Part shown: one piece after another, positions 445 to 63,500 of the stretch
How the letters are laid out: every line of letters starts with the position of its first letter
Position numbering within the stretch: the first letter of the stretch is position 1
DNA from: Ceraceosorus guamensis
Lineage: Eukaryota > Basidiomycota > Exobasidiomycetes > Ceraceosorales > Ceraceosoraceae
Assembly: GCF_003144195.1 (NCBI RefSeq)
Contig: NW_020290021.1
Coordinates: forward strand, 1-64,000
Length of the DNA: 64,000 nucleotides
Direction: 5' to 3'
The notes under the pieces: model-generated
The model's database searches: none
The model's input: only the letters and a program-made list of their open reading frames with translations
What the model was told of the DNA's origin: nothing
Program-made: the position numbers and the translations under genes

Positions 445-1780
445 TTAGTACTGAGCAGCGCACTCAATACGCTCTCCAACGGTTCCGAAGATGCGGTCCC
501 AAATGCGCGTCTGCTTTCCGTAGTTCTTGCCGGACTTGCCGAATCGGTGGTGAAGATCGTGGTCTTCAACGGCAAGCTCCATGCCGAGGGGACGGAGCAT
601 CAGACCGAGAAGTGGGTGGGGCCAGTAAGCGCGGATACCCGAGTGTCCGAGAGCTTCAACGTAGAGCAAGTAGCAGATGGCGTAGTGAATCTCGACGAAG
701 GACATCTTGGGCGTGACGAGAGAGGCGAGGAAGGGAACAATGAAGATCTCGATGCACTCCTGGATGTCGTCGGCCAAGATGGAGAGAATGGGTGTCGGGT
801 GCTTGGTGGCGTGGTGCTGACGGTGGATGAACCACAGGCTGTCAAACTCGTGGCAGGATCTGTGGTAGAGGTAGAACCAGTAGTCGAGAGCAACCTCGAA
901 TGCCATAATCTTGGGGATGGAATAGATGCTCAAGCCCTCGAATGGGTTCGACATCTCTCCGCGCCATGACAAGATGAAGGGGCCGAGGGTGCGAAAGACG
1001 GTGTAGATGAAGATGGAGCGACCCAGGTGGTTGACGTGCCTGTCGTCGACCATGTCTCGTCCACGGTTGAGTTCGTCAAAGGTACCGTACGTGGCCATGT
1101 ACTTGTGCAATCTTCCGATCATCAGGAACGCGAACAGGATGAAAGACAAGTGGTACAAGACCCATCCCGGCGCAAAGTGCAACTTGTGCTCTGTGGTGTC
1201 ACGGGCAATATGAGGGGTGAGCGAGATGCTAATGCATGGTTGGCCATTCAGGCGTTACTCACCGGGCACAAGCTTGTTCCACGCCCAGTGAATCGCCAGA
1301 GGAATGGAAGCAGTGGGGATGATGAAGGCATTCTCACGCCACATGGGTTGGTAAGGAGGGGGGCCGCGCAGCTTTTCGGTTGCCGCTCTCCTTTGGTAAG
1401 AGACTTCGGGGCAAAGATCGAGCGAAGCGATGAACTCCCACAGAGTCCAGGTGGCGGGAGGCTTCAGCTGCCATGTACTGCGAGCGCAGGGACAAGCGAC
1501 GGCAAATAAATGTCAGCGGAGGCGTTGAGTGGTACCGGTGCCGAGTGAACACTCACGTCTTTGGCCTGACACCGTACACCTTGTCGAAGTTCTTGCCCTC
1601 TGAGTCCTTGGCAATGGCTGCGTGGCCTGCGCCGCCGGGAGCGGTGGGAGCAGGCTCATCGCAAGCGTTGTCTGGCGCCAAGGAGGGCACGTTGCTGTCG
1701 GTAAGCTTCTGTTCGCCCATGTTGGGTCGACGGCTGGGCGCTTCGCCCATCGCCTTGGGGAATTGCGAAGGATCCGCCAT
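445..1780 (-). CDS. Fatty acid hydroxylase superfamily (sterol desaturase-type) membrane di-iron oxidase
   Basis: Predicted 394-aa integral membrane oxidase. Exons on the minus strand are 1780-1557, 1477-1263 and 1190-445. Phases agree across both GT-AG introns, and the start is the ATG at 1780. Three histidine clusters typical of the superfamily lie in exon 3: HRSCH, then HRQHH about ten residues later, then HDLHH near the C-terminus. They are expected to bind a di-iron centre on the cytosolic face. Hydrophobic segments flank them (around WVLYHLSFILFAFLMIG and IEIFIVPFLASLV). The first ~75 residues are polar and Pro/Ala-rich. The family includes C-4 sterol methyl oxidase, C-5 sterol desaturase and sphingolipid or alkane hydroxylases. 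I cannot choose among these from the sequence, so no symbol is given. The enzyme normally works in the ER with cytochrome b5 or a reductase. Confidence 0.9.
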
Positions 1781-6369: not shown

Positions 6370-8177
6370 TCATGCTTTGGTGGCCTCTGCAGGTGCAGGA
6401 GAGGGCGCGGCAGTGCCGTTTCCCTCTTCGGAAGATGCGCTGGGAGCGCTCAAATCTGTCGCCTTCTCGTGAATGTTGAGAGGCTGGGCGTGGTGTCCCA
6501 AGTCAGCAGGAGAGCAGTTGCCCTCGAGATCTCTGTTGATGAAGAAGCTGTCCTGCGCCCATTCTCCACACTGATCCTCGTCCACACCGATAATCTCTGC
6601 GGTCTCAGATGCGCGGAAAGGTCCCACGTAGGGGATGTGGTCGATGACGAGCATGATGGCGAAGGTCACGCCACCGGTCCACGCGGTGGTGGCAGCGCAC
6701 CATGCCAATTGGATGGCAAGCTGTACGTAGTGTTGGTCGATCCATCCACCAGGGATCTCGAGGATACCATCATTGTTGGCGACAGAAGCTTGCGCGAACA
6801 GACCAGTGCAGAGAAGCCCGACCCATCCCGCGAGAGCGTGTACGGCGAATACATCCATAGCATCGTCGCATCGCATGGGAGCCTTCAATTGTGTTGCCAA
6901 GTTGGAGAAGAAAGCGGAGAGGAAACCGACAGCCAAGGAAGCTGGCACACCAATGAATCCTGCTGCCGGGGTGATGGCCACCAGTCCAGCAATGGCACCG
7001 GTGCAGAAGCCAACAACGGACCACTTGCGCTCCAATCTCCAGTCCATAAACATCCAGGTGAGTCCTGCCATGCTCGCAGCAGTGTTGGTGGTAGCGATGG
7101 ACATGCCGGCGCGGAGGTTTGCAGCGAACGTCGATCCTCCATTGAAGCCGAGCCATCCGAACCAGAGGAATGCGGTGCCGAGCACAACGTGGGACACGTT
7201 GTGGGGCTTGAAGAGCAGACGCTCAGTTCCGTAGCCGCGACGCTTGCCGAGGTAGTAGCTGATGACGAGGCCGGTAATACCGGAGCAAATCTCTACAGGT
7301 CCTCCACCGGCATAGTCCAGCACACCCCAGTTGTAGGCCCAACCGGCGCTGTTCCACACCCAAGAAGCGATGGGGTCGTACACCAGCGTAGTCCAGACAA
7401 AGACAAAGACGATGAAAGGCCAGACGCGCGCACGCTCGCATGCGGCTCCGATAGCAATGGCGGGAACCAGACTGGCGAACATGCACTGGTACATGGCGTA
7501 GACAATGTCGGGAATCTTGTTGTTGGCGTTGGCATTGGGAGCTTGCAGCACATCGATAAAACCGAAATGGTTGAGGTTACCCAGGAATTTGCCTCCCGTA
7601 GGTGAGAAGGCGAGAGAGTAGCCCCAGAAGACCCATTGAATGCTTACTACGGCAAGAGCCATGATGGTCATGAGGAGCATGTGAAGCGCATTCTTCCTTC
7701 TCGTCAAGCCAGAGTACAGGTAACCAAGACCTGGAATCATGAGCCACACGAGAGCTGTGCAGGTCAAGATCCAGGCCAGATCTCCTGGGTTGTACGCCAC
7801 AATGCTCTCGTTGTTGGAGCCGTAGGTGACGATCAAGTCAGTTCCCTGGCTGGTGAGAAGGGTAGAATTTTCGGTGGCGCCATCAGGAGCAAGCACTGCA
7901 AGAACGAGGGGGCAGGAGCAAGTCAGTAACTTTGCTCTGATTCAGATCTGTCATGACTCATGTTTGCCGCGCATACAAGCGAGCGCGCTGCCGCCTCTGC
8001 ACCATGGCATGCGTGTGCTTGTGCATTGAATCACGGCCAATGATGGTCACTCGAAAGACTCACATACTCCGTACTGATGGGCGGGAAAGCAGCAGCAGCA
8101 AGGTGCAGGCGTCAGTATATGTCCGGATGACAGGCAGAGCTTTTTCGAGACTGTCGACTCACAGTGATGTTGACCAT
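6370..8177 (-). CDS. Ammonium transporter (Amt/Mep family)
   Basis: Predicted 516-aa plasma-membrane ammonium permease. Exons are 8177-8163 (15 nt, MVNIT), 8073-8064 (10 nt) and 7895-6370. Phases sum exactly, giving the start MVNITYGVLLAPDGAT. About eleven hydrophobic spans are visible. Family marks include GYLYSGLTRRKNALHM, the first pore histidine in FKPHNVSHVVLGT followed by FLWFGWLGFNGGS, and the second pore histidine in FAVHALAGWVGLL. The cytosolic tail of ~80 residues after HIPYVGPFRASE is polar and Ser/Pro/Ala-rich. In fungi these permeases import ammonium when nitrogen is scarce, and some act as sensors for filamentous growth. I cannot tell whether this copy is the high- or low-affinity type. 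Two introns crowd the extreme N-terminus around the micro-exon. Confidence 0.95.
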
Positions 8178-10633: not shown

Positions 10634-13600
10634 CTATCCAAGCAAATCGCCCAGCAAATTCTGCTTGTTCTTCTTCTCCTTCGCCTTCATCTCTCTCATC
10701 TTCTTCGCCCTTTCCTTGTCCTCCTTTGCTTTGCTCTCCCTCTCCACCTTTTCTCTCTTCTCTCTCTCTTCCCTCTTCAGCCTCGCTTCCTCCGCAGCTT
10801 GCCTGCCTTGCGCCTCTGCAATCTCTGAAGCGGCGGCTAAGTCTTCGGCTCGAGCTGGGCCAGGTACTGGACGCAGCATGGGCGGCGGCGGCGCGGAGCT
10901 CTGCTGCGAATACAGCCTTGGCGCTACAAAGGCTTCGGGCGTTGTCGAGGGTGGTGCCTGTGTTGGTGAGCCGAGAGTAGTGACAGGAGCGCGTGATGGT
11001 TGTGAAGAGGCATCAGCATTCGGCGCGGCCGAAGCTGTTGTGTTTTCTTCTGATGTACGAGTGGCTGCAGAAGCTTGCACTTCTGTCGCTTGATCTGGGC
11101 GGGCCTCTTTCTCGCTTGGCTCCCTGGTGCCGGCTGCGGTCCCAGCGACTGAGATGTTTTCAACGAGCGCATCCTGGCCAGCTTTAGGTGCGATCGTCAC
11201 TTCGCCCTGAACCGGCTCCGCTCCCGCCGTAGAGGGCGCTGGCACCGCAGCTGTCTGGCCTGCAGTGACAGGAGCTGGTCTACCTATGGATGGCTCGCTT
11301 TCCCGACCAGGCTCCATCTCGGTGTCGCCAGGAGCTTTGGCTTGCGTCGCTTCGTTTGACGAGGTGGCCTGCTGCATTGCTCCATCTGCATTACCACCAG
11401 CATCGCCACTCGACCCGCCAACTGGAGTAACAGAGACCGCGGAGGGCTGCGCCTGACCATTGTCATGTCCATCCAGTGGCTCGACGATATTTCCTTCCGC
11501 GCCGACCACAACAGTCGGCTGGCTGTGGCCGTTGACCAGAGTCGAAATTTGGGTAGCACTTCCTGTCTGCGCGTTGCCGTCGAGCGTTGGCTGTGGATCG
11601 GGTCTGCTTTGACCTTCCACAGGGGCCGGAGCGAAGGGGACATTGCCATTTGGCGAAGGCTGCTGGGCTTGTACCGGCGCAGGTGGAGGATTTGGCCGCG
11701 GTGTACCCGACTGTCGACTCAGCAACGCACAGTACTGTTCCCATTCGCCAATGAGCTGTAAAACGTTGAACAGCGCAAGTCAACGATGGAGGATGAGCAT
11801 GGCAACTTGGGCACACGGGTGTGCAGAGATGTACTCACCTCGATCTGTCTCTCAATTTGGCCCTGGATCCAACTTTCCACAGCAGCCCTAACCTCTTGAA
11901 CCTTCTCGCTATCGAAGCGATCCATTTCATCTTTGCACCTCAGGCCGACCAGATCGAAGTCTCTCTTCAGGCCTAAGCTCCTGCTCTCGGCGTCCGCAAC
12001 GTCCTGCAAGCTCATGTGCATCCTCTCTCCTCCCGACCTGCCTTCCCGAGTCAGCTTTTCATGCTTCGAGCGCACTTTGCGGTATTCCTCTTCCGACTTC
12101 TGCCAAGCTTGCCAGACGTCTATACGAGTAGCGAATGCTTTCTAGAGAAATGTTTATGCAGAAGGATCGCGTCTCAGCCCAGTACTTCCTCAGTTGGTCG
12201 GATGAGCTAGGACACGCCAGCTCTTGACTCACACGAACACTGCCGACGATGCGCTCATACTCATAGAGGACGGCGCCCATCTCACGCATGTCAGCTTCAG
12301 CTTGCGCGTCATTCAGCTCGCAAGATCTTCTTTGAACTTCTCCCAGGCCAGCAAAGCATGTGGACAAGCTCCTCGAGAGGGAGCTTCCGGACAGCATCAT
12401 CAGCGCGTGCGACAGCTCCGAGATGGCCGACGCTGCATCTGTGGAGATATGCGTAGTTATCAAGGATCAGCACCGGTGCGCCCGTGAGACTGCTTCTACC
12501 GACGCCCCCACACTGAAACGCACCTCGACGTTGCTGCGAGACCGAAGAGACGGCTCTGACGAGGTTCTTGAGTTGCGTCTCCAGATGATCCAAGTAATTC
12601 TTCTGGTTGCCAAACCACTGCCAGGCATATGCATTCATCGTCGGAGTGATGAGCAGCGCCATGACGAAACATTTCGCTCTGTATCGCTCATAGTCAGGCT
12701 CACCTCATCTGTCTCGTGAAATTTGGGGGCGCTCATTTGATTGCTCCATCCGAAGTACGTCTTCTGCTCCGGAGTAGGTACGGGCCCTTTCCTGATATCC
12801 CTCAGCCTGACATCTGCAGCAAAGTCCACGCTTTCCAAGAATAATCTCAGATCCTCATCTTCTTGCAAGAGTCTATGATTTGCAATCTTGTTGATGCAAT
12901 TCTCCAATCCAAAACGTCTGGCTTCCACCAATTCGGGATTGAAACGACCCAGCTTGTGCTTCTCCGGCACTGGAGGAATGAATACGCCCGGATTATTGTG
13001 GACTAAGGCGGCATGTAGCCATCTGAAGTCTGAATAACGTCGCAATGCACTGAATTCTGATCGGAAAGCTGGATGATTGGTCTGACCCAGATGGCAGACA
13101 AACGCGCAAGAGTATCAGCATGTGATCGAGTAGTTTGACCATCGACGGAGCGCCTCTCACCTTGGTTCTGACTGTGTAGACAATGTGAGCAGTGACGGGA
13201 TCACCTTTCCTTTGAGGATCTCCCACCTTGATGGAAAAGCTGGGTCTAGGAGCAACCGGTGTGCTTTCCGCTTCAGTGGATTTCCCATTTGTCACCTCCC
13301 ACGACTGCTTGTGCGCCGGAGTGACGCCAGACCCCGCGTCCTGAGCAGCTTGTCGATTTTGGTCAGCCTCCTCATCTTTCGCAGGTGGCACATGATGATC
13401 TTCCTGCGAAAATTGAACAGAGCTTTCCCGCGGACTTGGCTGCCCATATCCATCTGAATCTCCATCATTGGGAACCTTGGTATCCACATCAGCGCTCGGC
13501 GCATGTTGCCCTCTCACGTCCAGGCCTGGATCGTTCCTTGGCACAGCCAGTGAGGGAAAATAGCTTTCGTCCCTCGAGGCTTGCATGTGCGTCGCGCTGG

Positions 13601-14429
13601 AGGCCGAACCAGAGGCAGACGCGGAATTGGAGTCTTGGGTGTGAGCTTGCGATGAACCTTGCACTAGCGCGCCATGCTCAGCATTCGCGCTCAAATTCAG
13701 GGGATCTTCCTCCAGATCCTCGTTCCTCGCAGTGCTTTGGCTCCGAGTGACGCTCGCATTTGCGCTTGCTGGCGAGTTTCCGCCACTCTCAGAGATGTTA
13801 GTCGGGGGCGGAGTGGGTCTGGCCCTGAGAGAGCTGAAAGATGGAGCATTCGGTGAACCAAGTAGACGTAGGGAAGCGGGCTTGGAATCGCTCGCGTGCG
13901 CGTGGTTCTCCTCTGCCAGTCTGGAGATGGGTGACCTGGCTCTGACTGAAGAAGACGATGAAGCAACTCCTGCTGCTGATGAGTTGTTTGCGTGCATTTC
14001 TGCGCTGACAGGCTGCTGCGGCTGAGGCTGCATTGGCGGACTAGCGTGCACGCCTTCGCCCTCAACGAATTGTGGTGTCTCTGATGAGGCTGTTACAGCG
14101 TCGTGTTGAGCCGCTTCCTCAGCCTGCCTTCGTGCAAGCTCTTCTTCCCTACGCTTGGCAGTCTCCTCAGCTGCTTTTCGTGCCAGATCCTCAGCCTGTC
14201 GGCTGGCTTCCTCTGCAGCTTCTCGCTTTCGCCTTTCCGCTATTTCTTTGCGCTCCTCAGCCTCTAATTTGGCCTTTTGCCTCTCCTCAGCCTCCTGTCT
14301 GGCTCTCCTGCTCTCCTCTTCCTCTTTTCTCGCTCTCTCTTCCGCCTCCTCTTTCTCCCTCTGAAGCCTTTCTTCTTCCCTCTTTGCGCGTGCTACCACG
14401 GCCAACTCGGTCAAGTAAGGTGTCCACCA
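10634..14429 (-). CDS. VPS5: Vps5/SNX1-like PX-BAR sorting nexin with N-terminal coiled coil (spliced in frame to the upstream RmlD-like exons)
   Basis: Retromer-type sorting nexin; the family binds PI3P endosomes and tubulates membrane for retrieval to the Golgi. Exons are 14429-13161, 13081-12704, 12617-12524, 12438-12233, 12141-11839 and 11755-10634, all phase-consistent. The first exon has a long charged helix of EERKEIAERRKREAAEEA type, then a disordered Ser/Pro/Ala region. The PX domain spans the next junction: AHIVYTVRTK, then RRYSDFRWLHAAL, NNPGVFIPPVPEKHKLGRF and RRFGLENCINKIANH. The BAR region runs from WFGNQKNYLDHLETQLKNL to LIGEWEQYCALL. A ~360-aa low-complexity tail follows, ending in a Lys/Glu-rich helix and LLGDLLG. 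No in-frame ATG precedes this exon before a TGA, and its 5' edge is a clean acceptor joined to the RmlD-like gene, so it may not have its own start. An internal ATG start is the alternative. Confidence 0.85.
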
Positions 14430-14548
14430 CTGTCATGGTGAAAGTGCAAGGGAATGGGGCGAGGAGAGAGCGAATTGAATTGAATGCGGTTCAGCACCAT
14501 GTCCATCGACGATCTTTGACATTCTCGGTCGCGGATCGCGCCACTCAC

Positions 14549-15727
14549 TTCCTCAAATCCGATGCACTTCGTATCCACTCCGCACCTTTCCGTGAGGTCC
14601 AGATCTAGCTTGACATGTCTAGGTCTGCTTGTATCGTTCGGATCCACTTCGTAAACGGGCTCCAAATGATCCGTGCTGGTAGGCTCTTCCAGTGCGCGCT
14701 GAACGCGAGAGAGGACGAAACACATGTCTTGTTTCGTCATCGCTTCTCTCGCTGAGAAATGCAGGACGGGCGGGACCCTGCCTCGAACGATGCCATTTTC
14801 GCTCTGCGCATTTGAGTCCTCTTCAGACAGAGACTTGTACCAGATTTGAGAGAGGGAGAGAAGTCCGCGAGATACATCCTCAACGCTCGTTGGATACCTG
14901 ACGGCGACTGCGTCCATCTTGACCCTGCCTTTTGATTCCTCGCGAGGTGAGATCACGTCCAGCAAACAATTGACTGCTGACTCAGAGTGCGTCTCCGCTT
15001 TGCCGTACCTGCGGCTCAAACAAATCAAGCATTAGTGGCGACAGGCAGCGCAGACGAACGAGCGAAGGACTTACAGGACGGGAACTCTCCAAACGCAGAC
15101 CCTCCCGCTCTCTCCTTTGCTCAGCACAGCCTTTTCCCCATCCCGCTTGCTGCGACCATATGAGTTGAGCGGATTGGGCTCGTCAGAAGGGCTGTAGGGC
15201 GGTGAGATTCCATCAAAGACGTAGTCTGTCGAGATATAAATTAGTAGCGGTGATTCTTTTCCCCCTCCTTCCGTTGGTGTCTCCGCCTCTGTGCCCGCTG
15301 TGGCCGAATGCGCATCATCCGTCACAAGCTCGAGAGCAATATCCCTGGCTATTTCTGCCAACCTTCCTGGGACGTCCACATTGAGCTCCATAGATCCCTG
15401 GGGATCAGCTTCAACCACATCAGGTCTCCTTTCTGCGGCTGTGTGGATGATGACGTCCGGCTTGAAACGCTGCAGTACCTCTCTGAGCGAGGAGGTGTCG
15501 AGCAGGTCCAAGGAGATCAGAGGCGGAGCTGCCCGTGACTTGGCAAGACCGAGGACTATGAGCGCAAGCGAGGTGATGCGCGTGTGAGCTGATGGCGCTT
15601 CGGTTGCTCAGGTAACGCGGCACGTAATTGGACAGTAGCATAGCTCACCTTGATGCCCCTCGGTTGTACATCTCTCTACGACCGCCCGGCCCAACAAGCC
15701 GGAAGCTCCAGTGACTGCAATCCTCAT
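14549..15727 (-). CDS. RmlD/MAT2B-like NAD(P)-binding (dTDP-4-dehydrorhamnose reductase-type) domain
   Basis: Exons are 15727-15649, 15555-15075 and 15008-14549, exactly 340 codons, starting at the ATG at 15727. The N-terminus has a Rossmann motif (TGASGLLG, residues 6-13). STDYVFDG lies near residue 135 and a YGRSK pair (Tyr/Lys of extended SDRs) near 159-163. RVPVLYG and a late RPRHVKLDLDL segment match the C-terminal part of RmlD and of the regulatory beta subunit of methionine adenosyltransferase. Which of these two roles applies is not decided by the sequence. The third exon ends GFEE at a strong GTGAGT donor. The next acceptor (14430/14429) continues in phase with WWTPYLTEL and then the coiled coil of the PX-BAR protein. 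If the donor is not used, the frame runs on about 46 codons to a stop near 14411. Neighbouring divergent gene: the CDK8-like kinase. Confidence 0.85.
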
Positions 15728-29119: not shown

Positions 29120-29205
29120 TATTTAAGCAAGGCTAGTCTGCAAATTTCTCGACGCCTTTTCTCAGGCTTCTCACCATTAGCCCTTCCCCCTCAAAGCTCA
29201 GCAGC
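29120..29205 (+). promoter_or_regulatory. Probable core promoter of the alpha-glucosidase
   Basis: TATTTAAG at 29120-29127 resembles a TATA element about 80 bp before the ATG. A pyrimidine-rich stretch (29153-29199) follows, as is common just upstream of starts of highly expressed fungal genes. Assigned by position and pattern only. Confidence 0.35.
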
Positions 29206-32200
29206 ATGAAAGCCACCATCACATCGACGCTGGGCAGTGCTGCGGCGCTGCTGGCAGCTGTCAGCTCTAGTCAAGCAGCACCCGCGGGACTCTCTGTGAG
29301 GCAAGAGCAAGGTGTACGGGCCTCGTACGATGTCACCAAGTGTCCAGGCTACAAGCTCGACGGTCCCATCAACGAGTCCGAGCACGGCTTCACTGCTCCC
29401 CTCTCCCTCGCTGGTGATGAGTGTCACGCGTACGGCTACGACATCAACAACCTCACGCTCTCGGTGGTGTACGAGACGGTGGACCGGATGCACGTTCACA
29501 TCTACGACACAGATCTCAAACAATACCAGCAGCCCATAGACATGCTCTTCAATCGATCCGATTCCGATCCTGCCAAGGTTGACAACGCCTCCACCAAGGG
29601 CGTTTCCCACCTCGAGTTCCACATGTCCGACAACTCTTCGCAGCTGTTCGAGTGGTGGATCACCCGAAAGGGTTCTGATGGCGCACCCCTCTTCGACACA
29701 CGTCAATCGAACCTTCCTACATTCGATGAAGGCCTTTCTCAATTCAATGACAGCCAGCGCAACACGACGGCCATCCGCAGCAACGCCATGGTGTTCGAGA
29801 ATCAGTATCTGCAGCTTTCCTCTGCTCTGCCAAAGGACGCTTCCCTGTACGGACTGGGCGAGCGCTACAGCGGTGGCGGCATTGGCGATTCCAGCTGGCG
29901 ACTCCCCACCAACATGCTTCAACCGTTCTTCACGCTGGATGATGGCGATCCTTTGGAGTCCAACATGTACGGCTACCACCCCATCTACCTCGAGACTCGC
30001 GCGACTGCTGACAACAAGACCGAAAGCCACGTGGTGGCTTTCCAATCGACCGCCGGTCTCGACATCCTTCGCCGTGAGAATGACCAAGGCGCTTTGATCC
30101 AGTACCGCGCTATCGGTGGCACGCTAGACTTCCGCTTCTTTAGCGGCTCCGCTGAAGCCGCGACGCCACCTGCTGACGCCGAGGCCGAGCAAGTCGAGGC
30201 CACCGTCGAGTCCTCGCTTGCTTCCCGCGCTGACATTGGCAGCAGACAGGAGGCGAGCAATGCGACGACTTCCGACGTTTTCGACGCGTCTCGCCTCCTG
30301 AACAACCCCACGACGGCCTTTGAGCAGTACGCAACTTATCTTGGTGGTGGACCTCTTCTCGTGCCTCGATGGGCCCTTGGTCTGCACTTGCTGCGCTGGG
30401 GACTCAACACCGTCAATGACAGTCGGGAAATGGTTGAGAACATGCGCCAGGCCGACATTCCCCTCGAGACCGCCTGGGCCGACATTGACTGGCTGCAAGC
30501 ATACCGCAACTTCGCGCCAGATCCCAACCGCTGGCCCGCTGACGAGCTCAAAGCTTATGTGGAGGAGCTGGCTACGAAGAACCAACACTTTATGCAGATC
30601 ATTGATGGTGCTATGCCCGCCGCCCCAACAAACGACACCGATGTCTACTTGCCGGGCACTGCTGGCGACGAGATGGACCTCTGGTGGAAGAACGCGAATG
30701 GCACCGACTACGTGGGCCAGGTATGGCCAGGCTACACGAAATGGCCCGATTCTCATCACCCCAACTCGAGCGAGTGGTGGTACCAAAGCCTTGCCAATCT
30801 TTCCCAGACGCTGCCCAACCTGGCCGTGTGGCTCGACATGCAAGAGCAGTCCTCCTTCTGCATTGGTTCTTGCGGATCTAACCAAAACCTCAGCGACACA
30901 CCCGCTTACCAAGCAGCGACCAGTGTAGCTGGATGGCCCGAAGGTTATTCGAACACTACTTACGGCAACTCCGGCAACATTACCGTGAATGGCACGCTCA
31001 CCTTTGCGGGCGTCGGCTCTGGCAGCGATGAACCTCTGCAGCGCCGTGCCGAGCTCCCTAGCAGCGAGCTGTCCGTCCGCGCTGTCAACGCCAGCGACTT
31101 CCACTACTCGCCTGCCGATCACGTGTACCAGAATGCCACGCAACGTTTCCTTTGGGATCCGCCTTACGCCATCCACAATGGCTGGACATCGAGCCCTGGA
31201 CCATTGGTTGACAACCTCAACAAGAAGACCATCTCCATGGAGGCTGTCTCGAAGGGCGGTGTGTCCCACGACGTGCACAATTTGGAAGGCAGTTTGACCG
31301 GTGCACACATTCATGACTCTTTGCAGCGCATCAATCCCGAGTCGCGCCCCTTCATCATTGCTCGTTCGACCGCTCCGGGTGCAGGACGTCGTGTGCACCA
31401 CTGTGAGTAAGACGGTACTCGCTGTTTTCTTGGATGGTGTTGACGTTAGATCATCGTCGATTGCAGGGCTTGGTGACAACTACTCGACGTGGCAATACCT
31501 TGCCAAGTCGATCCAGGGTGTGCTTCAATTTCAGCTCTTTGGCTTCTTCTCTGGCTCAGACGCCTGTGGTTTCAACCGCAACTCGAACGAAGAGCTCTGT
31601 GAGTGCTTGTCAATTTGAAGAAGCGCCTGACAACGTGGCTCATCGAGGCGCTTTCATCCAGGCAACCGATGGATGTCTCTTGCAGCCTTCACACCATTTG
31701 CTCGTGGCCACAACACACAAGGCGCCATTTCGCAATTCCCTTACGACTGGGAGAGCGTGGCCAACGCAACGCGTACAGGCTTCTATAAGCGTTACGAGCT
31801 CCTTCCGACGCTCTACACCGCTATCGCCCGTCACTCGCAGCGGGGCACACCTGCTGTGAAGTCTCTCTGGGTCGACTTCCCTGAGCACTTCAACGAGCTG
31901 AAGGCGACCGACACGCAGTACATGTTTGGCCCCCTGCTCGTCACACCCGTGCTGCAACCCAACGTCACCACTGTCGACGGCTTCTTCCCTGCTGCGGGTG
32001 GTGCTTGGCGCAACGTATTCGACAAGTCTGCCGTTACTGATTTCAACAAGAACATTACCATTCCTGCGCCGCTTTCCAGCATCAATGTCCACCAGCGACC
32101 TGCGAGCGTTTTGCTCACGCACGCAAGACCCGCTTACACCACCACAGAATCCGCCGCTGGTCCTTTTGGCCTGTATGTTAACCTGGGCGACGACGGCAGC

Positions 32201-32497
32201 GCGACAGGCGATGCGTATGTCGACGATGGTCTGACACCACTGCCAAACCCCGCCAAGGAGCTCAAGTTCAGTGCCAAGAATGGAAGCTTGTCGGGCCAGG
32301 CGTCTGGCGACTACAGTCTGGAGCAAAAGCTCGACGAGATCTTGCTCTTTGGTCTCGATGCTGCGCCATCGAACGTCACTGTCGGTGACAGACAGTTGGA
32401 TCAGGGCGCCCTGATCTTCGACAACAACACCCAATCGCTCAACATCACTGGTCTGGGTATCGATCTGAATGGTGCTTGGTCCGTCACTTGGCAATGA
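29206..32497 (+). CDS. Secreted alpha-glucosidase, glycoside hydrolase family 31 (AgdA-like)
   Basis: Predicted 1054-aa extracellular enzyme that hydrolyses terminal alpha-1,4 glucosidic bonds of maltose, oligosaccharides or starch. Exons are 29206-31402, 31467-31598 and 31662-32497; phases agree. The N-terminal signal peptide has a hydrophobic core around SAAALLAAVSSSQA. GH31 marks in order: LYGLGERYSGGG, then LLRWGLNTVNDSREMVENM, then ETAWADIDW. The nucleophile region is WLDMQEQSSFCIGSCG; the Asp is the nucleophile, and the pattern resembles Aspergillus AgdA (DMSEVSSF) rather than the more common DMNEPSSF. The acid/base Asp lies in GDNYSTW, restored across intron 1. ELCNRWMSLAAFTPFARGHN spans intron 2. 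Many Asn-X-Ser/Thr sites fit a glycoprotein. It is slightly longer than typical AgdA. Its 3' neighbour, about 4 kb away, is a Zn2Cys6 regulator; no link is shown. Confidence 0.96.
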
Positions 32498-36688: not shown

Positions 36689-39600
36689 ATGCAAAGCCCT
36701 TATAGCCAGCACCAAGGCGACGCTCGCACCGCCGGGGGCGCTCTGCTGGCAGGCGCCAGCGGCGTTACTGGAATGCCGTCTCGAACCTTCTCTGGAGACT
36801 CGGATCACAGCACGCCCACCGGTCCGCAAGGCCAACGCAATCCTTTCACATCCAGTATTCTCGGTCAGGACTCGTATCAGCCATACGTGCACAGCCAGAA
36901 CAACCAGAATGCTGCTGGCTTTCAACAAATGGTCGCGGGGTCTAGCGGGTCGAAACGCAAGGGCTCACCAGCAGATCATCCCAACGGCAGCAAAAGGTCG
37001 CCAAACTCTCACGATGCTTCGCCTGGTCGGGCAGGTAGCTCTAGTGACCTGAATGGAGGCTCGCAGTCCAACGGCTACCTTTCTGGTGGGGCAGCAGCTG
37101 GCACGAAGAGAATCAAGACTGCCAGAGCGTGTGATTCCTGTCGAAGGTGAGCGGCGTCACGAATGGCATCGTCTTGTGTGCTTCTCGCTCTGACGCAGCT
37201 GCTCGCTCTGATGCTTGTCTGCTCAGGAAAAAGATTCGGTGCGACGTTATCGAGGACGACGCCGCCCCCCTAGGAGATCCTAACAATGGCAACGGAGGCT
37301 TGATATGCGCGCACTGTCGACAATACGGCTTTGGTGAGTGGCCAAGGAAGCGGTGCGATGTGGTCGGACGGGTGGGAGCTGCTGCTGACAAACGGCCGCA
37401 CTCTGCAGAATGCACTTTTTTCCTGCCGATCACTGAGACGCGCTTCAAGAAGAAGCACGAGCGTGAAAGGGAGGAAGCAGCGCAAGCCCAGGCCCAAGCT
37501 GCTGCTGCCCACGCTGTTATGGCCCATCGAATGGCCGCATCTGCTGGCCTTCCGCAAGCGGGTCCAACGGCAGCATTCCCTCTGCACTCAGGACCATTGC
37601 CTTCTGCCCCACTGTCCGGCATCGCAGCGGGTCGATACGCTTCTTATGCGGCTGCGCAGCCAATGTCAGCACTAGATGCGACCGGGCCCAGACATATCAG
37701 TGCGACACAAGAATGGCCTCCTCGCAACCCTTCGAGTGCTTCTGTCGCAGAGGGTTCGAGCTCCAGATTAGCAGTCAGCCCCAAGTCGGCACCCACACAC
37801 GCGTGAGTCGCGGCTTGACACCGTGATTGCAGCTCGCCATACTGATGCATGCTTGCCTTTGGACCGATTTTAGTCGACCTTCGGGTAGTGCATCCGACAG
37901 CGGAAAGACGTCGCCACCACCACCGAATACAAGAGTGCTCGGTCCGACCAGCATTGCTTACATAGTGCACTCGACCGCTTTCGTGCCTGGTGCTGCGATC
38001 GAGGAACACGATTTGAAGCACCATCAAACTTTTGAAGTGGGTGCTTCTGGCGATGGCATCATCAAGTTCCACAAACCTCCCCGACGGCAGTCGCATCAAG
38101 GCTCGATCTCATCAGAAGCAGATGACTCTGATGACCTTCTCGCTGTGCCTGACGCCTTACGCTCCAGGCTTGCTGGCGATGTTGCCGAGAAGCTGGTCAA
38201 CACGTACTTCGAGAGGATAGGATACCTATTCCCCGTCATCACCAAGAGCGAGTTCCTGAGTCAGACTCCGCCACCACCTTTGCTGCTCTACGCCATCTGC
38301 GGCATGGCAGCGTTGAGCCGGGAGACGCCTAGAGAGGTCTTGGGCGCAGTCAAGATGACTCTTGCTGCCTTTTTCAAGGAGAACGACCTGCTCAGCAATT
38401 CTAGCATCCACACAGTGAAAGCGCTGCTTATCATGAGTCTACACAGCGACCTGCATGGCTTGAATAACGTTTCTAGTGGAACCCGGTGCTGGAATAGGAC
38501 CGGCATAGCGATTCGAATGGCCCAGGACCTCGGCATCCATCGCGATGCTTCTGGGCGCGACGATTTAGATGGCGATGCTTTCTTCCTAGAGCAAAAGCGA
38601 CGAATTTGGGGTTGTTGCGTCACTGCGGACAGGTGCACCTCGATCTCTCTCGGGCACCCGCTTGCGATCGACCTTACGGATTGTGACGTTCGTCTGCCGT
38701 CCCCGCTTGAAATTTTGCGCCACCCCTCGGACCTACGCGCCAATCCAGCTTTAGAGCGTCCGTTCGCATTCAACACAGAGATGCTCAAGCTTAGCATCCT
38801 TTTTGGACGAACGCTCAAGACGATCTACAGCCCAACGGGTCTGATGAAGACCACCGACGAGGAGATTGTCAGTTTGCTTGCTGACATTGACAGTTGGAAA
38901 GAGTCTCTGCCAGCTGAGCTGCGGTATGATGGACCCGACGCCCAAGCACCCGCTGGCATTTTGCACACCTGCTTCGCCTGCTTGCAGCATCTCTTCTTCC
39001 GCGTCTTCATGCGTATTTCGTACAGCTGCCCACAGCACCTCAGTTTCAGCTTGAACATTGAAAGAATGACGGCGATGATCAAGAACGCTCGGGAGGCCAT
39101 CGAATGGGTAGATAGGAACGAATTCTATTTAGACACCCTCCATTTCCTAAGCTACTCGCTGGTGTTCTGCGCCACAATTCAGTATCATGCATGGATGCGA
39201 CGAGGGGATCAACAGGCTTTCGAGACTCTACGCAAGTGCAAGGAGTGCGTGACCCGTCACAAGCCGGAAGGCGCTCGCCACGACCTATCGCTCCGTGCCA
39301 AGACTGGTGAAGTGGTCGCCTTGCTCTTCAAATCGGCAACCGGGGTGTACAATACCGTTGATGGCAAACCGAGCTCAGGGGCTCTGAACCCCACTGCCGG
39401 TGTCACTAATCGTCGAACGACGGACACGGTCAGGGGCATTGTCTTCAAAGCAGATCAGTCCAAGCCTGGGGGAGGGGTGTATGTAGTCGCCGACAGAAAG
39501 CTGCTTCTCAATGATCTGCCGACCGGCACCATCCTGCTCCACGAGACTGCTGCTGGGCGCGTCCCTGCACTGGTGCGGACCTCGGACGAAGCTAATGGCG

Positions 39601-40346
39601 GCTGGCAGGCATTCCCACGCCAGACTGCAGCTGCTCAAGATGGAAAGGCTAGTGCTTCACCACAAGGCCAGCCTTCAAGCGATCTGACTCACATTGCCGG
39701 AACTGTGTTCCAAGACGCTGAGGGTATCCCAGTCGATAGACGCGGCTCACGCATGATCACGATGATACCAGTAGGTCAGCCAGGCATGCCACAGCAGCAT
39801 CAGCTTCAACTTCTCCAAGCTGCACAGCAGGCAGCGCTTCAGCAGCAACAGTCTGACTCTAGTGCGCCGAACCCGCCTCCGGAAAACTCTGCGGCCGCTG
39901 GCTGGCAGTCCGACGCTGGTCTCAACGCAGACAATGGCAACTCGCTCTTGCAGCACCGTCCATCGCTCAGTGCTGGCAATCTCGGCAATGTCAATCCGCA
40001 TCTGAACGATGCGTCCTGGGCATCGACTCTGGCCAGCTTGGGCTTTCCCGCCGATGCATACACCTTCGATGGCCAGAACGTGTTTCCGCTTGGCAACGCG
40101 ACCAGCGCAGACGCCTCCGCCGGTTTTGAGCCGCTGGTCATCGACGGCTTCCCGGATGGCTTGGATGTTTGGGGTGCGTGGGCACAACAGCTCAGCCGCG
40201 CCAATGGCATGGGAGCGCTCGACGCGTCCACCACTGGCGGTGGCTTCTCAAACTCCAACGGTGCTCAGCACTCGGGTGACAGTGGATACAGCGCTGCAAT
40301 TACCGCTCCTCCCACACTTGGTAGCCTAGCAAATGGCGGTTTCTGA
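36689..40346 (+). CDS. Zn2Cys6 fungal transcription factor with Fungal_trans domain
   Basis: At least 1143 aa. Exons are 36689-37146, 37227-37333, 37409-37802 and 37874-40346, in phase. The Zn2Cys6 cluster is split over three exons: CDSCRRKKIRCD, then ICAHC, then EC before TFFLPITETRFKKKHERE, giving the six Zn-binding cysteines. The basic stretch after it is a likely nuclear signal or linker. The middle homology (Fungal_trans) region includes LLLYAICGMAALS, GIAIRMAQDLGIHRD, EQKRRIWGCCVTADR and SISLGHPLAIDLTDCDV. The C-terminus is Gln-rich (QLQLLQAAQQAALQQQQ) then Asn/Gly-rich, as in activation domains. Related regulators control carbon or polymer use, but the target is not evident. ATG 36689 is simply the first in-frame ATG; the open frame continues upstream, so the true N-terminus is probably longer. 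Confidence 0.88.
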
Positions 40347-42628: not shown

Positions 42629-45600
42629 TCAAGCGTTCTTGCTGATATAGTAGCTCAGCAGATCCTTGTGATGGGGTTCAAGAGGCGCGAGAATCGAAAA
42701 GAGAATGTCAAGATCCTTGAGCCTGCTATTCGCCGTTTTAATCACGTCCGTAGCAGCGATCCTGAGGTCCGTGTTGGGATCGGCAAAAGCGTCTTTGACA
42801 AAAGCTTTGAACCTCGGCAATTCCTCCTCCACCAGCTCGGCAGGCAGTCGAGCCAGCAGCTTGCGCAACGCATACAGACCCAGCTTGCGCACTCTTTCCC
42901 GTCCTGATCTCGACGCTTCGCTCTCGCGCAGCGCTGGCTCCAACGCGGACATCAGCGTGCCCAGCCCTAGAATCGGCTCAATTCCGCTGCTCCAAGCATC
43001 AATCAGGGACTCGCAAGCGTTCCTCGAGACATTTTCTTTCTCAAGTCTCCGACGAAAGACGAGGCTCAAAAATTGCGTCTCCTTGTCAGTCGAAGAAATG
43101 AGGGGCAGCTGGTTCTCCAGAATCCGTCTCAAGACGACCAGTGCGGCACCGGTGAGGTTGACATCCTGTGAGAGAAAGCGAGATGTCAGACAATGCTACG
43201 GATGGGCTGCTCGGATGACAGCGTCTATGCTGCATGCACTCACAGCACTGGGCAAATTCAGATACCGCATGATAGCTTCCCACAGACGCTCGAATATCTG
43301 CGCTTCCCTCCACGCCGCAACGACTCTCTCAGAGTCTTGCTCAGCATCAGGTTGAAGTCCAAGAGCACCGCCTCCGCTTTGCAAAGGGGCTTCGCCTCTT
43401 GTCGCAGCGTCAATGTCGAGTGGTGTCGCGCTGACCGGCAAAGGCAACTTGTATTCTCTCGAAAGCGCCCCAAGCCTTTTGAACGTGTCGAGGTCCGCAT
43501 TTCCAGCATGGAGATTCGTAACCCACTCTTGCACGCCGGGCCTGTTGCTCAGGATTGAAATGGAGGTGCCTGAGGAAGATGCCTTGGCTCGCGGCGAACC
43601 TAATGCCACTTCAGCAGCCGCGCTGTCGCCGCTCAAGCCGTTCAGTCGCTCTTTCTTGGTATCTTCATTCGACGTCGCGCTGCTTTTGGCAGGCGATTCC
43701 GGAGGCGCTTGCGCATGACTCCGCTGCGCGGGCAGCAAACTCCGTCTCGTGGGTCGCTGAGGAGTAGGCGAAGCACTTCCCATGAGGTCGACGGACGCGT
43801 CCGCAACACCCAGATCTGCCAATTGCACAGTCTCATCGTGGTCCGGCGTTGCCGCAGGCGCTCTTTGAGCTCGCACAGGTCTAGCAACAGGGCGAGCTGT
43901 GGTTGACTCTGGTGATTTGCTTGCCCTTGAAGGCGCTAAAGCTGATGTTTGATAGGCAGCAATCCTGTCCTTCACGGAGCGCGAAGCGCTACCCGAGCTC
44001 GCGGAGCTAGGAATGGAATGTCCGTTGCCGGGTGCAGCGGGCTTGGTCAAATTGCTTGCTTGCGCTCCCGCCCGCTCAGTTGGCGGGGTATGCGCGTCTA
44101 AATCTCCATCCGCCTCTTCCGCATCCTGCGCCTCGGCTTGCTCTTTCCTCTGCTGAGCCATTCGTTCGGATGCAGCTCTTTTGGCAGCCAGCAGAGCGCT
44201 CGAGGGCCCGCCTGGCCTGCGAGGCGGTGCAGCCGAGACTGTACGTGCCTTAGCGGTCGTCGCATTTGCAGCAACAGATTGCGAGGTTGCAGCAGCAGTA
44301 GCAATCTGCTTCCTAGTCGTTGGATCCAGCGATTCCAAAAGACGTTCAGCCTCAACCGGCCACACAGCTTGAAACCGCCCAAACCCCTCCCTCGCTTTCG
44401 AGCGCACATCCGGATTCGGATCGGGCAGAGCCTTCTTGAAAAAGTTCTGAAACGTCTCAAGTCCGCTGTGCGCTTCGAGCTGATGTTTGCGAGTTAACGC
44501 ATTCCTCTCGAGAACAATGCATAGATGCGCGCAAGCAAAACTTCTTATAGCCACGTTTTTCTCTTGCAGGCCGCCCCAAAGCGCTTCTAAGAATGTGGCT
44601 CGGTAAGAGACGTTCTGCAAGATGAGAGCGACTGCGCTCTGCGCAGCATTGGCAACCAGCTTCTTGGTGAAGCCTGCCATGCCAAAGAGACTGGTGAAGA
44701 AAAGATCGACTACGGACTCGTGCAACTCATCTCCGAGCGCAACAACAGCTTCTCCGACAAGACTGATGCTGTGCATAGCCAGAGTGGTGCGCAGGCTGGC
44801 CGTCTGTTCAGCAGGAAAAAATGGCTCGTCAGCATGCAAGAAATTGCCTCAAGCCAATCTCACCAATCGCTTACACCTTTGCAAATGCCCGCTCCTAGCC
44901 CTCGAATCTCCTTCGCCAAAGACTGCCCTAATTTCTCCGCGGTTCCCGTGCGCAAGATGCCTCTGATCTTCATCATCGACGCTTCCCTGGCCGCCCAATT
45001 GTGTTCCGTCTCCTTGCCCTCAAAGATGGCCTGCATAGGCGCAAACGTGCGCTCAATGTCTGCCCTCGACGCAACGTACACCATTGGCACATCGTCCTGA
45101 GCAGACGGGGTTGGCTCACCACGTGCCATTGCCTGTGGTCCTGTTGGTGCGGCACGCGAGGGGCCTGAACGTGCAGCGCTACCAGCCTGAAGCTCAGCGT
45201 CCCCATCAGCGCCGGCGAGATCAGCGGGAGGCTCAACGACTTCCGCAAAAACGGAAGCAAGGAGCGGATCTGCCGTCTGCTTCCTCACTTGCTTCCTCTC
45301 CAGCTCCTTTTTCAGATCAGTCTTGGCCGCTGCAGGTGCCGGCGCGAAGAGGGCGACGACGGATTGCCTAGCTGCTTCTCTAGTGGGGCCATCGGCGTCG
45401 GACAGAAGGTCGACGAGGTTAGGAAGGATCGGCTTGAGCTGCAGAGCATTCTTCACTTGGTGCCTGAGGATCGGCAAGTGAGCCGTTGTCTGCACAATGG
45501 CAGAGACGATACGTGAGCAGCGGACACCTCCGTCAAGCGAGCACAATGCTCGCCTGCCACTCACACCTTCTCTGACCCTCGGACTTTTGGCAGCCAGTCC

Positions 45601-46171
45601 ATTGTCTTTCAAAACTCTCATGAACGCCGCACCAGGTGTCTCTTTGCTGCTAGAGCCGCCGAGCTGCGTCGATGCAAGCGTAGCCTCTGCAATGGCATCT
45701 AGTGCATCCCTTGCGACAGATTTGACCCTCTCCTTGCCATCGCCTATCCTCTCCAGTACAGCAGTCAACCACTTGTCTGCGACTCGACACAACAACGAAG
45801 TCGCGTTCGAGGCTTCCTTAATGGACTGGATGAGACCTGATATTGAAGCGAGCGCGGGAACGAACAGGCCGGGATGACTGTGCCTGAGCGCCTTTTGCAA
45901 GGGCTCAATCAGGGCAAGAGGATCGGGAGCCTGCGGTCCATCGGCGTCGAGGTGACACATCACAAGGGCGACTGGACGATGAGCTGACGGACTCGTCGCT
46001 TGGGTGCAAGCAATGCTGCTGACTCACGGGGGCGGTCAAAAGGCGCGTGATGAGCAGAGATAGTGCCGTCGCTCGCTTGTCCACGTCGTTGGCTGAAGAG
46101 TCCAAGATGGCCAAATTCTCAGCGATGCGCTCCGCATGCTCCTCCTCATCGAACGCGCTGCTTGACGCCAT
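42629..46171 (-). CDS. STU1: CLASP/Stu1-type microtubule-associated protein
   Basis: Predicted ~1089-aa protein that stabilises microtubule plus ends and spindle microtubules. Exons are 46171 to about 46024, 45971-45565, 45489-44864, 44795-43244 and 43165-42629. Four of the five exon edges were fixed by phase agreement. The first junction needs a GTCAGC donor or another arrangement, so it is provisional. The N-terminal half is made of TOG/HEAT-like helical repeats (LPNLVDLLSDADGPTREAA and AAREASMMKIRGILRTG). The CLASP_N block follows: CLRTTLAMHSISLVGEAV, FTKKLVANAAQSAVALIL, then PNPDVRSKAREGFGRFQAVWP. A Ser/Pro/Arg-rich basic linker (residues about 570-760) is the usual microtubule-binding segment. 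A C-terminal HEAT region ends LLSYYISKNA. Confidence 0.88.
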
Positions 46172-60506: not shown

Positions 60507-63500
60507 TCATCTGTTTGCGAATCGAGTATACTTGGCGGCAAGAACCGTGATGATCCAATTTGATGCCGCAAAGGCAATCATGATACCGATCGAGCGACCA
60601 CGATTTGCGAAGCTGACATTGATCGGTGCGAAGAATTCCTGGCCGAACTCGTATTGACAGTATCGGCAAGCTTCAGAGTCTCCTGGATTGTCCAAGTAGC
60701 CGGTGGCAGTGCGCAAGAAGTCTGCTGCATACGCTTGACAAGTTTGGTCGCTTGGTGGGTCGAAGATGGCGAATTCGTTGAGGTCGCATCGAATCCTGAG
60801 ATCTTGCAGCTCGTTTGCAATGAATCCTCCAACAGTGTGTGTAAGCGGGTTCAGCCAGTACAGCCAGGCGCGCCAGAATGGCGTCATGGTGGCGTAGACG
60901 ATGGTGACGCCGCAGAACAGACTGAAGGTTAGGACGATGAACGGAATGAAAAGCGTGCAGACGTAGATTGAAGGAGTAAGCGCAGCCATCGCTTGACCAA
61001 GGCCGATGGAGAAGAATTCCAAGACCAAAAGAAGGGCAAAGAAATAGCCGGCGCGGTTGGAGTCCGATTGGAAACCTGTGACGAAGTAGAAGAGCAAGAA
61101 GTAGACGACAGCGCACAAGATTCCGTATGGAATCTCGGCCATCATTTGCGTGAGAGCGAAAACGACTGGCGTGTACATCTTGGAAGAATTCTCTCGCAAG
61201 AAGGTGGAACGTGCGATGATGTACATAGGACCAATGGATGCCAAGATGATAGCCGGCAAGACCGCGGTCATGAAGATACCGAAGATGCGGAATTGGATGC
61301 TTGCGACGTTGTTGCCGAGCTGGAGGAAGACGAGACCAGTGAAAAGAGCAAAAGCGCCGTGCTGGAACAGTCGAGTAAATTGGTAGTCGGGAGTGCGCCA
61401 GCTGACCAAGAATGTGCGGTTGGCGACAGTCTTGATCTGGTACATGAACGGGGTGGCATATTCGGAAATATGACCTCGCTGCGAGGGCTTTTCGAGGCAG
61501 TCTCGCTTGATCTCCTGGATCTTCTCCAAATTAACGCGGTTGAGCTCTGATTCGTTGTAAATATCTGCCCAGTCACGAGGGCCAACACGCTTTTGAGATC
61601 CAGCTCCAATGATATCGAGCATTGCTTCCGCAGGGTTGACGTCGGCAGGCATCTTGGCGCCATTGGCTTCAAAGTAGTCGATGAGGTGCTGGGAGCCAGT
61701 TCCGATGTCGCCAAAGTAGACCGTGCGCCCGCCAGTGCTGGTACCATCGCTGTTGATGATACCACGCTCCAGCAGCAGAAGGCGATCGAAGTGCTCGAAC
61801 AGAAGACTGCTAGGCTGGTGGATTGTGCAGAGGATAGTCATACCTGCGTGGGTCAACTTGCGCAAAAGACGGACGATGGTCATGGAAGATGCACCATCGA
61901 GACCACTGGTGGGTTCGTCGAGGAAGAGCAGCTGGTTGGGCTTGGCTGCCAGCTCGACACCGATGGTGACACGTTTGCGATCCGCGACGCTAAGACCAGC
62001 GACGGTCCATCCAATCATAGCATCGGCAATGTCTTGCATCTCCATGAGCTCGATAATGTCTTCGACGTACTGATTCTTCTCCTCCTCGCTCGTGTGGTAG
62101 TCTTGACGCAGGTATGCACTGAATCGAAGGGCTTCTCGGACCGTGGCAGTAGGCTCGTGCAGATCTTGCTGCTCAGCATATCCGCAAGCGCGTTGGAATT
62201 CCGTGTCGACTGGACGTCCTTCGACCAGACGGTCGCCTTCGATTTTGCCGACGCTCTTGCGATCAGCAAGGACGTCAAGAAGAGTAGTCTTTCCTGCACC
62301 ACTGGCGCCCATGAGAGCGGTCAGAGATCCGGGTACGCAGTAGCCGTTGATGTTGTCAAGCAATTGTCTTTGCCCGCCCTTGACAGGTACGGTGTACGAA
62401 AGATTCTCCCAGGTGAACGCACGTCCTTCTGCCTTGAGTTCGACTTCGTCCGTCTTGCCTTCGAGGACCAGCTCACGACGCTCAGAGAGACGGGCGTTGA
62501 GCTTCTGCTCTTCTGCATTGGGCTTCTTCTTGAAAACGATGGCCGAAGAGTACGATCCTTGCTCCATTGTCTCAACAAAGAATGCGGTGAGAGCAGTGAA
62601 GCCAAAGAAGAAGATGAATTCGATGCCGAGGTTGAGCCATTGATGCCAGAGCTCGAAGCCAAACGACTCGCGCAGGTAGTCGATACCTCGAACTGAGGTC
62701 TGCCCAAGCTCCGCTCCTTGCAGAGTACATGTTTGGTACTGGATGTTGTTGTACTGGGGAAATCCCGAAGGCACAAGATAACCGGATGCGGCATCACATG
62801 CGAGGTCGAGACCACGGAACTCGTTCAGCATCAACGCTTCGAAGAAGTAGTAGATTGGGTTCAAGTAAGAAATCCTGAGAGGGGCGTAGCGTCAAGCGAT
62901 GGTTCAGCTATGGGGTAATGAGACGTGAGCGAGCGAGCAGGAGTGACCACTCACCAGAAGAGCCATCGAGGCATGGCATCGCGTGGAAGCACGTAGCCCG
63001 CAAACAGCACAAGACCAGACATGACTGATGCGGCGAGACGCGCCGCAACGTCGTAAGACCTGCAGACAGTTCCGAACAGCGAGAAAAGCGCTCGGAAAGT
63101 GTAGTTCGCTAGGATGACGTGGATCCAGAAGGTGAAGAAGGCACCTGCGGTGTACCTCAAACCAGCCATGAAGTAGATGATGATGACGAACATTGTGATC
63201 TTGGGAATACCAGTCGGGAAATCTGCGGCAAGATGGGCGATAGTGAGAGCCGAGGGACGATAGAACGCGAATCCGTGGCTTTGTCTGAAAAGGATCGGGC
63301 GGCCTCCCATCTGAGTTGGCAATTCCGCAAAGGCGCTGAGAGATCCGAAGAGCAGCGTGATGAAGATGACACCACCGCGAGTGAAGGCGCCAGCTGCGTT
63401 GACCTCGATCTGGTAGAATAGAGAACCGATGACCAATGCGAGAATGAGTGAGGTGATGTAGGCAATGACAAGATCCCTCCTATCATTGAGGATCATTAGG

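Follow-up and report, generated by a model that had tools for sequence, protein, structure and literature searches.

The first 64,000 nucleotides of contig NW_020290021.1 of the fungus Ceraceosorus guamensis (here called the window) contain a minus-strand gene at 15727-10634, in which nine exons (4392 nt) add up to 1464 codons including the stop, with zero internal stops and with GT-AG borders at all eight introns (Table 1). The existence of this open frame, which joins an enzyme domain to a PX-BAR sorting nexin, is confirmed as the original prediction had described it, including the GTGAGT donor at 14548 and the acceptor at 14430. Judged from sequence, the gene probably (at a probability of about 0.88) encodes one protein of 1463 residues, in which a MAT2B-like enzyme is followed by a helical arm, a disordered linker, a Vps5-type PX-BAR region and a long tail, and which would be the Vps5 of this fungus. 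With Pfam, RmlD_sub_bind (PF04321) was found in exon 2, PX in exon 5 (79.5 bits) and the Vps5 C-terminal domain (PF09325) in exons 7 and 8; exon 3 alone fell below the cut-off, and exon 1 and the Vps5 match in exon 6 were added by a search of the genome.

The fusion is already present in the deposited C. guamensis protein (P0001, 1122 residues), which shares the 14549/14429 junction, is 100% identical across the enzyme, and agrees with the nine-exon translation at residues 1-756 and 764-1090. The deposited model omits VYTVRTK at the end of exon 4 (window 13181-13161) and retains intron 8 (window 11838-11756), ending within its read-through. Relatives proceed past intron 8 with WEQYxALLxRQTG-like sequence, of the kind supplied by exon 9, and they back the nine-exon model over P0001 at both places. 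Support for exon 9 was sought in pairwise BLASTP against six relatives, with one stretch only given for five of the six, and the C-terminal tail beyond residue 1107 received no support from these alignments. For intron 7, an acceptor at 12120 was rejected as it broke the frame; the acceptor at 12142 restores the frame and agrees with the Vps5 profile match.

Table 1. Features of the fusion gene, followed by other genes in the window (window coordinates)
Feature	Position	Strand	Content or basis
Exon 1	15649..15727	-	Start ATG and Rossmann GxxGxxG motif (TGASGLLG, residues 6-13)
Exon 2	15075..15555	-	MAT2B-like short-chain dehydrogenase domain; STDYVFDG; YxxxK residues 159-163
Exon 3	14549..15008	-	Remaining enzyme domain to GFEE; exon-alone Pfam match below cut-off
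Intron 3 (seam intron)	14430..14548	-	GTGAGT...ACAG, 119 nt
Exon 4	13161..14429	-	WWTPYL enzyme end, helical arm, disordered linker, PX start
Exon-4 share of long predicted helix	14196..14429	-	E/K/R-rich; residues 338-418, first three in exon 3
EDPLNL, candidate Vps29-binding PL motif in linker	13692..13709	-	
DSDGYGQPSPR, acidic YGxxSP linker motif	13428..13460	-	
Exon 5	12704..13081	-	PX domain (LRRYSDFRW)
Exon 6	12524..12617	-	BAR (Vps5 C-terminal) domain start
Exon 7	12233..12438	-	BAR domain
Exon 8	11839..12141	-	BAR domain
Exon 9	10634..11755	-	BAR end (EWEQYCALLSRQSG) and long C-terminal tail to stop
Fatty acid hydroxylase	448-1254	-	Pfam
Ammonium transporter	6373-7941	-	Pfam
Glycoside hydrolase 31	29137-32494	+	Pfam
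Fungal transcription factor	37827-40343	+	Pfam
CLASP	43199-46023	-	Pfam
PDR-type ABC transporter	60510-64000	-	Pfam

The alignment with human MAT2B reaches query residue 346, through WWTPYL (ESLWPFL in the human protein), and this motif is encoded downstream of the seam intron, the conserved last helix of the enzyme (FEE/WWTPYL) lying across the junction; both tryptophans and the preceding phenylalanine are invariant in 43 aligned fusions. As had been described, an in-frame TGA (14435-14433) stands one codon ahead of exon 4 and no ATG lies near the start of the exon, the first in-frame methionine being residue 473 at 14033-14031, after 132 codons, with a further one at 13997. From 14432 the frame runs open into the PX domain and is free of stops up to the exon 4 donor, while the frame that continues past FEE into intron 3 lasts 45 codons before it meets a stop at 14413-14411. 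Because WWTPYL lies in exon 4, behind an upstream TGA and with neither an early methionine nor a stop, completion of the enzyme needs entry into the exon that leads to PX-BAR. With an architecture that is also conserved in relatives, this supports the proposed single product of about 1463 residues, in which enzyme, arm, linker and PX-BAR would form one fused protein.

That relatives might carry both domains in one protein had been suggested as a check on the prediction, and it is borne out by a search with residues 1-362 as the enzyme query among proteins of at least 805 residues. In 64 of the 84 matches (P0001-P0064) PF04321 is listed together with PX and Vps5, and the fusion is thus more than chance, although the 64 are not independent, as P0026-P0052 consist for the most part of 810-residue clusters from the Malassezia clade that are nearly identical to one another; the other 20 list neither PX nor Vps5. 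Named bearers of the fusion belong to Ceraceosorus, Exobasidium, Pseudozyma, Testicularia, Tilletia, Sporisorium, Sympodiomycopsis, Kalmanozyma, Tilletiaria, Ustilago, Melanopsichium, Parajaminaea and Malassezia. The eight genera checked in the taxonomy all fall in Ustilaginomycotina (classes Exobasidiomycetes, Malasseziomycetes and Ustilaginomycetes), where we presume that the remaining genera also belong. One fungal-type fusion (P0064) is filed under the plant Cichorium endivia and is probably a contamination. DNA of a Malassezia copy was also sought in viral contigs, and none was found there.

Outside this group, the enzyme and Vps5 are encoded as separate proteins in the other fungi seen, in line with the earlier statement that the two are normally separate, so that the fusion is a trait of the group and not an oddity of this window; nor are orthologues always encoded by two separate loci, since the fusion is conserved across the group. 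Among the best 120 of 418 matches to a PX-BAR query, 72 carry PF04321 and 48 do not. Separate Vps5 proteins make up 25 of these 48, one of them filed under Acaulospora, and we take their named members to be Agaricomycotina. The other 23 among these matches resemble pieces of fusion genes from the same fungal group; ten were placed in a PX-BAR tree, all ten inside the fusion group, and at least five (P0095, P0096, P0097, P0114, P0117) start within the C-terminal part of the enzyme. The pairs P0085+P0149, P0098+P0152 and P0100+P0153, whose members agree in the length of their longest contig, presumably each represent a single gene that a non-splicing ORF caller has cut in two. With an enzyme-only query, the first 14 of the best 120 of 3796 matches (P0147-P0160) are the Ustilaginomycotina group itself, and the named matches after them are free enzymes of other fungi, presumably Agaricomycotina, Pucciniomycotina and earlier-branching fungi.

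Both trees place the group apart. All 33 group rows of the enzyme tree (31 fused and 2 annotated as separate, among 60 rows; candidate P0077 was dropped, its start motif missing) lie beyond one 100/100 branch, and in the PX-BAR tree of 53 rows a 100/100 branch separates 40 group rows from 13 others, with unfused group models scattered among fused ones. These are LG+G4 trees of author-chosen representatives which carried warnings of long or meeting branches, and the PX-BAR cuts were profile-based. Among the free fungal enzymes in the matches listed (106 examined, 11 without the exact WWxxYL pattern), the chain ends 1-17 residues (median 4) past WWxxYL, at 10 or fewer in 94 of 95. Since free enzymes end just past this motif, the seam corresponds to the old C terminus of the enzyme. 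It is most likely that the fusion arose once, before the sampled Ustilaginomycotina lineages diverged, when a MAT2B-like gene directly upstream of VPS5 lost its stop.

The enzyme half scores 169 bits against human MAT2B and 57 against the best RmlD, and it appears to be a short-chain dehydrogenase domain of the NAD(P)-binding type (residues 1 to about 346) that is MAT2B-like and not RmlD proper. YxxxK and STDY are kept in all 43 fusions (with one D to E change) and GxxGxxG in 39, the other four being gapped there, which argues that the enzyme half is not decaying. Human MAT2B reaches into the MAT2A dimer with its C-terminal tail, and the complex no longer formed once the last 15 residues had been removed, according to an excerpt of the report (PMC4107924). 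The human chain extends 11 residues beyond its aligned end with the query, but a free C-terminal tail of this type was not found in the fusion, where the chain continues as a helix. Because the tail that grips MAT2A is absent, the label is kept at MAT2B-like. Of the identity proposed at the outset, an RmlD enzyme or a MAT regulatory subunit, the MAT2B-like sequence and fold have therefore held, while RmlD proper has not, and a regulatory subunit of the animal kind would lack its MAT2A-binding tail.

The PX-BAR half matches the Vps5 chain of 6h7w at 281 bits as against 140 for SNX1, and the PX residues RRY and F, which we take to bind phosphatidylinositol 3-phosphate (PI3P), are invariant in the 43 aligned fusions. 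The gene can accordingly be named as the likely C. guamensis Vps5, a retromer sorting nexin. In the genome (23.8 Mb, 199 contigs), six-frame searches in which only the best candidates were scored gave one MAT2B-like locus (with the protein query) and one Vps5-domain locus, both of them the fusion gene, and no second locus of either kind was detected. Two further loci matched the RmlD profile and were set aside, both having been missed by the enzyme query: by eye, one (L013, on C77) resembles a dehydrogenase of the 3-beta-hydroxysteroid dehydrogenase type and the other (L015, on C10) another extended short-chain dehydrogenase. The genome also holds Vps35, Vps26 and a Vps29-like open reading frame (ORF), the last identified by eye.

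Between the two halves, the AlphaFold model of the C. guamensis protein gives one helix at 338-418, which begins as the last helix of the enzyme and along which confidence falls. An alpha-helix rises 0.15 nm per residue, and at 81 residues the modelled arm would be about 12 nm long. The original prediction had called this region a coiled coil, a label that does not hold up: at most 12% of the heptad a/d positions are L/I/V/M/F in any register (up to 44% counting Ala), and there are 63 opposite-charge i,i+3/i+4 pairs as against 34 ± 4.5 in shuffled sequences. In all 18 non-Malassezia fusions chosen for scoring, 42-73 of the 100 residues after WWxxYL are charged, with few hydrophobic heptad positions and with 28-79 such pairs (z 3.3 to 7.5 over shuffles), whereas the nine Malassezia-clade fusions have 1-9 pairs (z -0.9 to 2.5) and lack the helical arm. 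By its composition, the arm looks like a single alpha-helix and not a typical coiled coil.

Past the arm, the linker has the low prediction confidence that goes with disorder, and in Malassezia it is short, at about 60-170 residues. Two kinds of motif stand out in it, both counted among the matches listed. An acidic YGxx[ST]P motif is found in 73 of 78 fusions, Malassezia included, vs 0 of the 25 separate Vps5 proteins, a set that is partly fragmentary ahead of PX; a looser form of the motif occurs in 70 of 72 parsed fusion linkers and in 2 of the 25. It is possibly a phosphosite or docking motif. PLNL occurs in 17 of the 72 parsed linkers, many of these rows being near-copies, and DPL in 16 of 25 separate Vps5 proteins of basidiomycete type. 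The binding of fungal Vps5 to Vps29 is mediated by a PL motif within the disordered stretch ahead of PX, as stated in part of a report on it (PMC12000511), and with DPL so frequent in the separate proteins, EDPLNL is for both reasons a reasonable candidate for retromer docking.

From these parts a mechanism can be proposed. The PX-BAR half, with a partner, would bind PI3P membranes and tubulate them, while the PL motif of the linker would recruit the Vps26-Vps29-Vps35 trimer. The enzyme half, which has kept its cofactor and Tyr-Lys residues, would be displayed on the outer face of every endosomal coat, and retromer tubules would in this way carry an activity or a sensor that binds NADP(H). A further step would be a redox-cofactor sensor built into the retromer coat, in which NADP(H) or a metabolite is bound by the MAT2B-like domain, which then alters Vps5 assembly or retromer recruitment via the rigid arm, so that endosomal recycling tracks metabolism throughout a subphylum of fungi; this we put forward tentatively, as an idea that is rather unlikely at present.

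Several observations weigh against the single conserved protein or against parts of this mechanism. Violaceomyces P0147 and Tilletia horrida P0150 carry the enzyme alone, and three NCBI entries (P0089, P0091, P0099) begin after the enzyme; such enzyme-only and Vps5-only entries may reflect secondary splitting or isoforms. AlphaFold is prone to draw helices too readily in E/K/R-rich sequence, and several Malassezia fusion linkers are without any PL dipeptide, which weakens the role assumed for the PL motif. In favour of the fusion, a model of one Malassezia-clade member has two confident domains (mean predicted local distance difference test score, pLDDT, of 85.3), which match MAT2B 4ktt and Vps5 6h7w; contact between the halves is not signalled by the summary scores of either this model (predicted template modelling score, pTM, of 0.53) or that of C. 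guamensis (0.47). In T. horrida, P0150 is a 323-residue enzyme-only protein named vps5 and P0089 a 937-residue Vps5 without the enzyme. Both share about 70-73% identity with the fused Tilletia proteins used for comparison, and a split gene model, a paralogue or genuine fission might explain them.

The original prediction had also allowed for two packed or overlapping genes, the second starting from an internal ATG in exon 4 and joined to the first by erroneous splicing. Methionine codons are indeed available in frame at 14033 and 13997, and for some relatives the annotation or the ORF calls give two pieces. This alternative is nonetheless very improbable, as the enzyme's own conserved end (the WW motif) sits in exon 4, which is open through to PX, and the fusion is conserved; in Malassezia, moreover, both domains are present with only the short linker described above. 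Apparently non-splicing ORF calls, presumably on DNA contigs, span both domains (e.g. P0003, P0006, P0021, P0039), and the split calls pair up (P0149/P0085, P0152/P0098, P0153/P0100), as expected from an unspliced seam intron. That same intron could instead yield two products, the fusion when spliced and a free enzyme when retained. Seven smut-like ORFs (P0151-P0153, P0155-P0158) stop 8 residues past WWRPYLAE (VRTQRSTL and similar) and leave the enzyme whole, Violaceomyces P0147 has been annotated as an enzyme-only protein of this kind, and Ustilago maydis makes a C-terminally extended peroxisomal glyceraldehyde-3-phosphate dehydrogenase by alternative splicing, according to a portion of the source (PMC3798809). 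In C. guamensis and in the Exobasidium-like P0148, P0149 and P0160, however, the read-through precedes WW, and retention would remove the last helix, while the seven smut ORFs are perhaps too close kin for their shared stop to imply selection, and an intron is presumed to begin there; two products of this kind are unlikely.

If the single fused protein is accepted, the question becomes what the enzyme half does there. It may be a passenger, the fusion being real, with halves that keep their ancestral jobs and were fixed together by co-expression or chance, and we consider this quite possible, if short of an even chance. It would agree with the two models, which show no sign of contact between the halves, and with a linker that varies greatly in length and in its helix, which the Malassezia clade lacks. 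Pointing the other way, the fusion has been kept group-wide despite the otherwise remodelled linker, the genome searches turned up neither half a second time, and the enzyme end extends into the arm in the 18 scored non-Malassezia members. By analogy with animal MAT2B, the enzyme half might also recruit or regulate the S-adenosylmethionine (SAM) synthetase, MAT, at endosomes. Its nearest solved relatives are MAT2B, and the genome has one MAT catalytic locus; the complex with MAT2A was, however, stopped by cutting the last 15 residues of MAT2B (in the excerpt of PMC4107924 cited above), and free fungal homologues, among the matches listed, are short past WWxxYL (94 of 95 at 10 or fewer) while the fusion has no free tail at all, so that such a role is improbable, though fungal proteins might bind MAT in another way.

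The other genes recognized in the window by Pfam are given in Table 1. Upstream of the fusion gene, the minus strand has about 35 C in a row (window 16099-16065). A different enzyme-plus-BAR model was seen in Rhodotorula mucilaginosa, where a 986-residue protein (P0068) has a MAT2B-like domain annotated with PF20400 and PF20399, which we take to be BAR-like and PH; it is perhaps a second such combination, possibly from a merge of neighbours.

The fusion architecture is visible in public annotation, often under names such as 'related to VPS5'. No description of it was found in the open-licence literature searched, by titles and abstract openings, and while the parts are known, their combination as a conserved group trait appears to be undescribed in that literature. 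Retromer is conserved across eukaryotes, and to our knowledge accounts of Vps5/SNX1 usually give it no domains beyond PX and BAR. In the lineages sampled from a whole subphylum, crop smuts and the Malassezia yeasts of skin among them, Vps5 would be chained to a MAT2B-like cofactor-binding domain, a natural experiment on whether metabolism is coupled to endosomal sorting. The fusion also offers a handle on the role of fungal MAT2B-like proteins, since the animal role needs a tail that they lack, and removal of the gene in these fungi would take out both proteins together.

Compared with known systems, the fusion is like Vps5/SNX1 in having PX, a Vps5-type BAR and a long disordered pre-PX region with a DPL motif, and it differs in having an enzyme domain in front and, outside Malassezia, a helical arm. 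Separate Vps5 proteins, in the matches listed, have a DDLL-type start in 15 of 25, in the place taken by the enzyme in the fusion, and the acidic YGxxSP motif in 0 of 25, as opposed to 73 of 78 fusions. MAT2B shares with the enzyme half its fold, GxxGxxG and YxxxK and gives the best sequence and structure matches, whereas the fusion has no free C-terminal MAT2A-binding tail and is joined to a membrane coat protein. RmlD, the dTDP-4-dehydrorhamnose reductase, is alike in Pfam profile (PF04321) and fold, but is a far weaker match, at about one third of the MAT2B bits (57 vs 169). Finally, MAT2B-HMMR and other large MAT2B models (20 of 84) resemble the fusion in that a MAT2B-like domain lies within a larger annotated protein; none of the 20 lists PX or Vps5, and the animal MAT2B-HMMR models may be read-through models of neighbouring genes.

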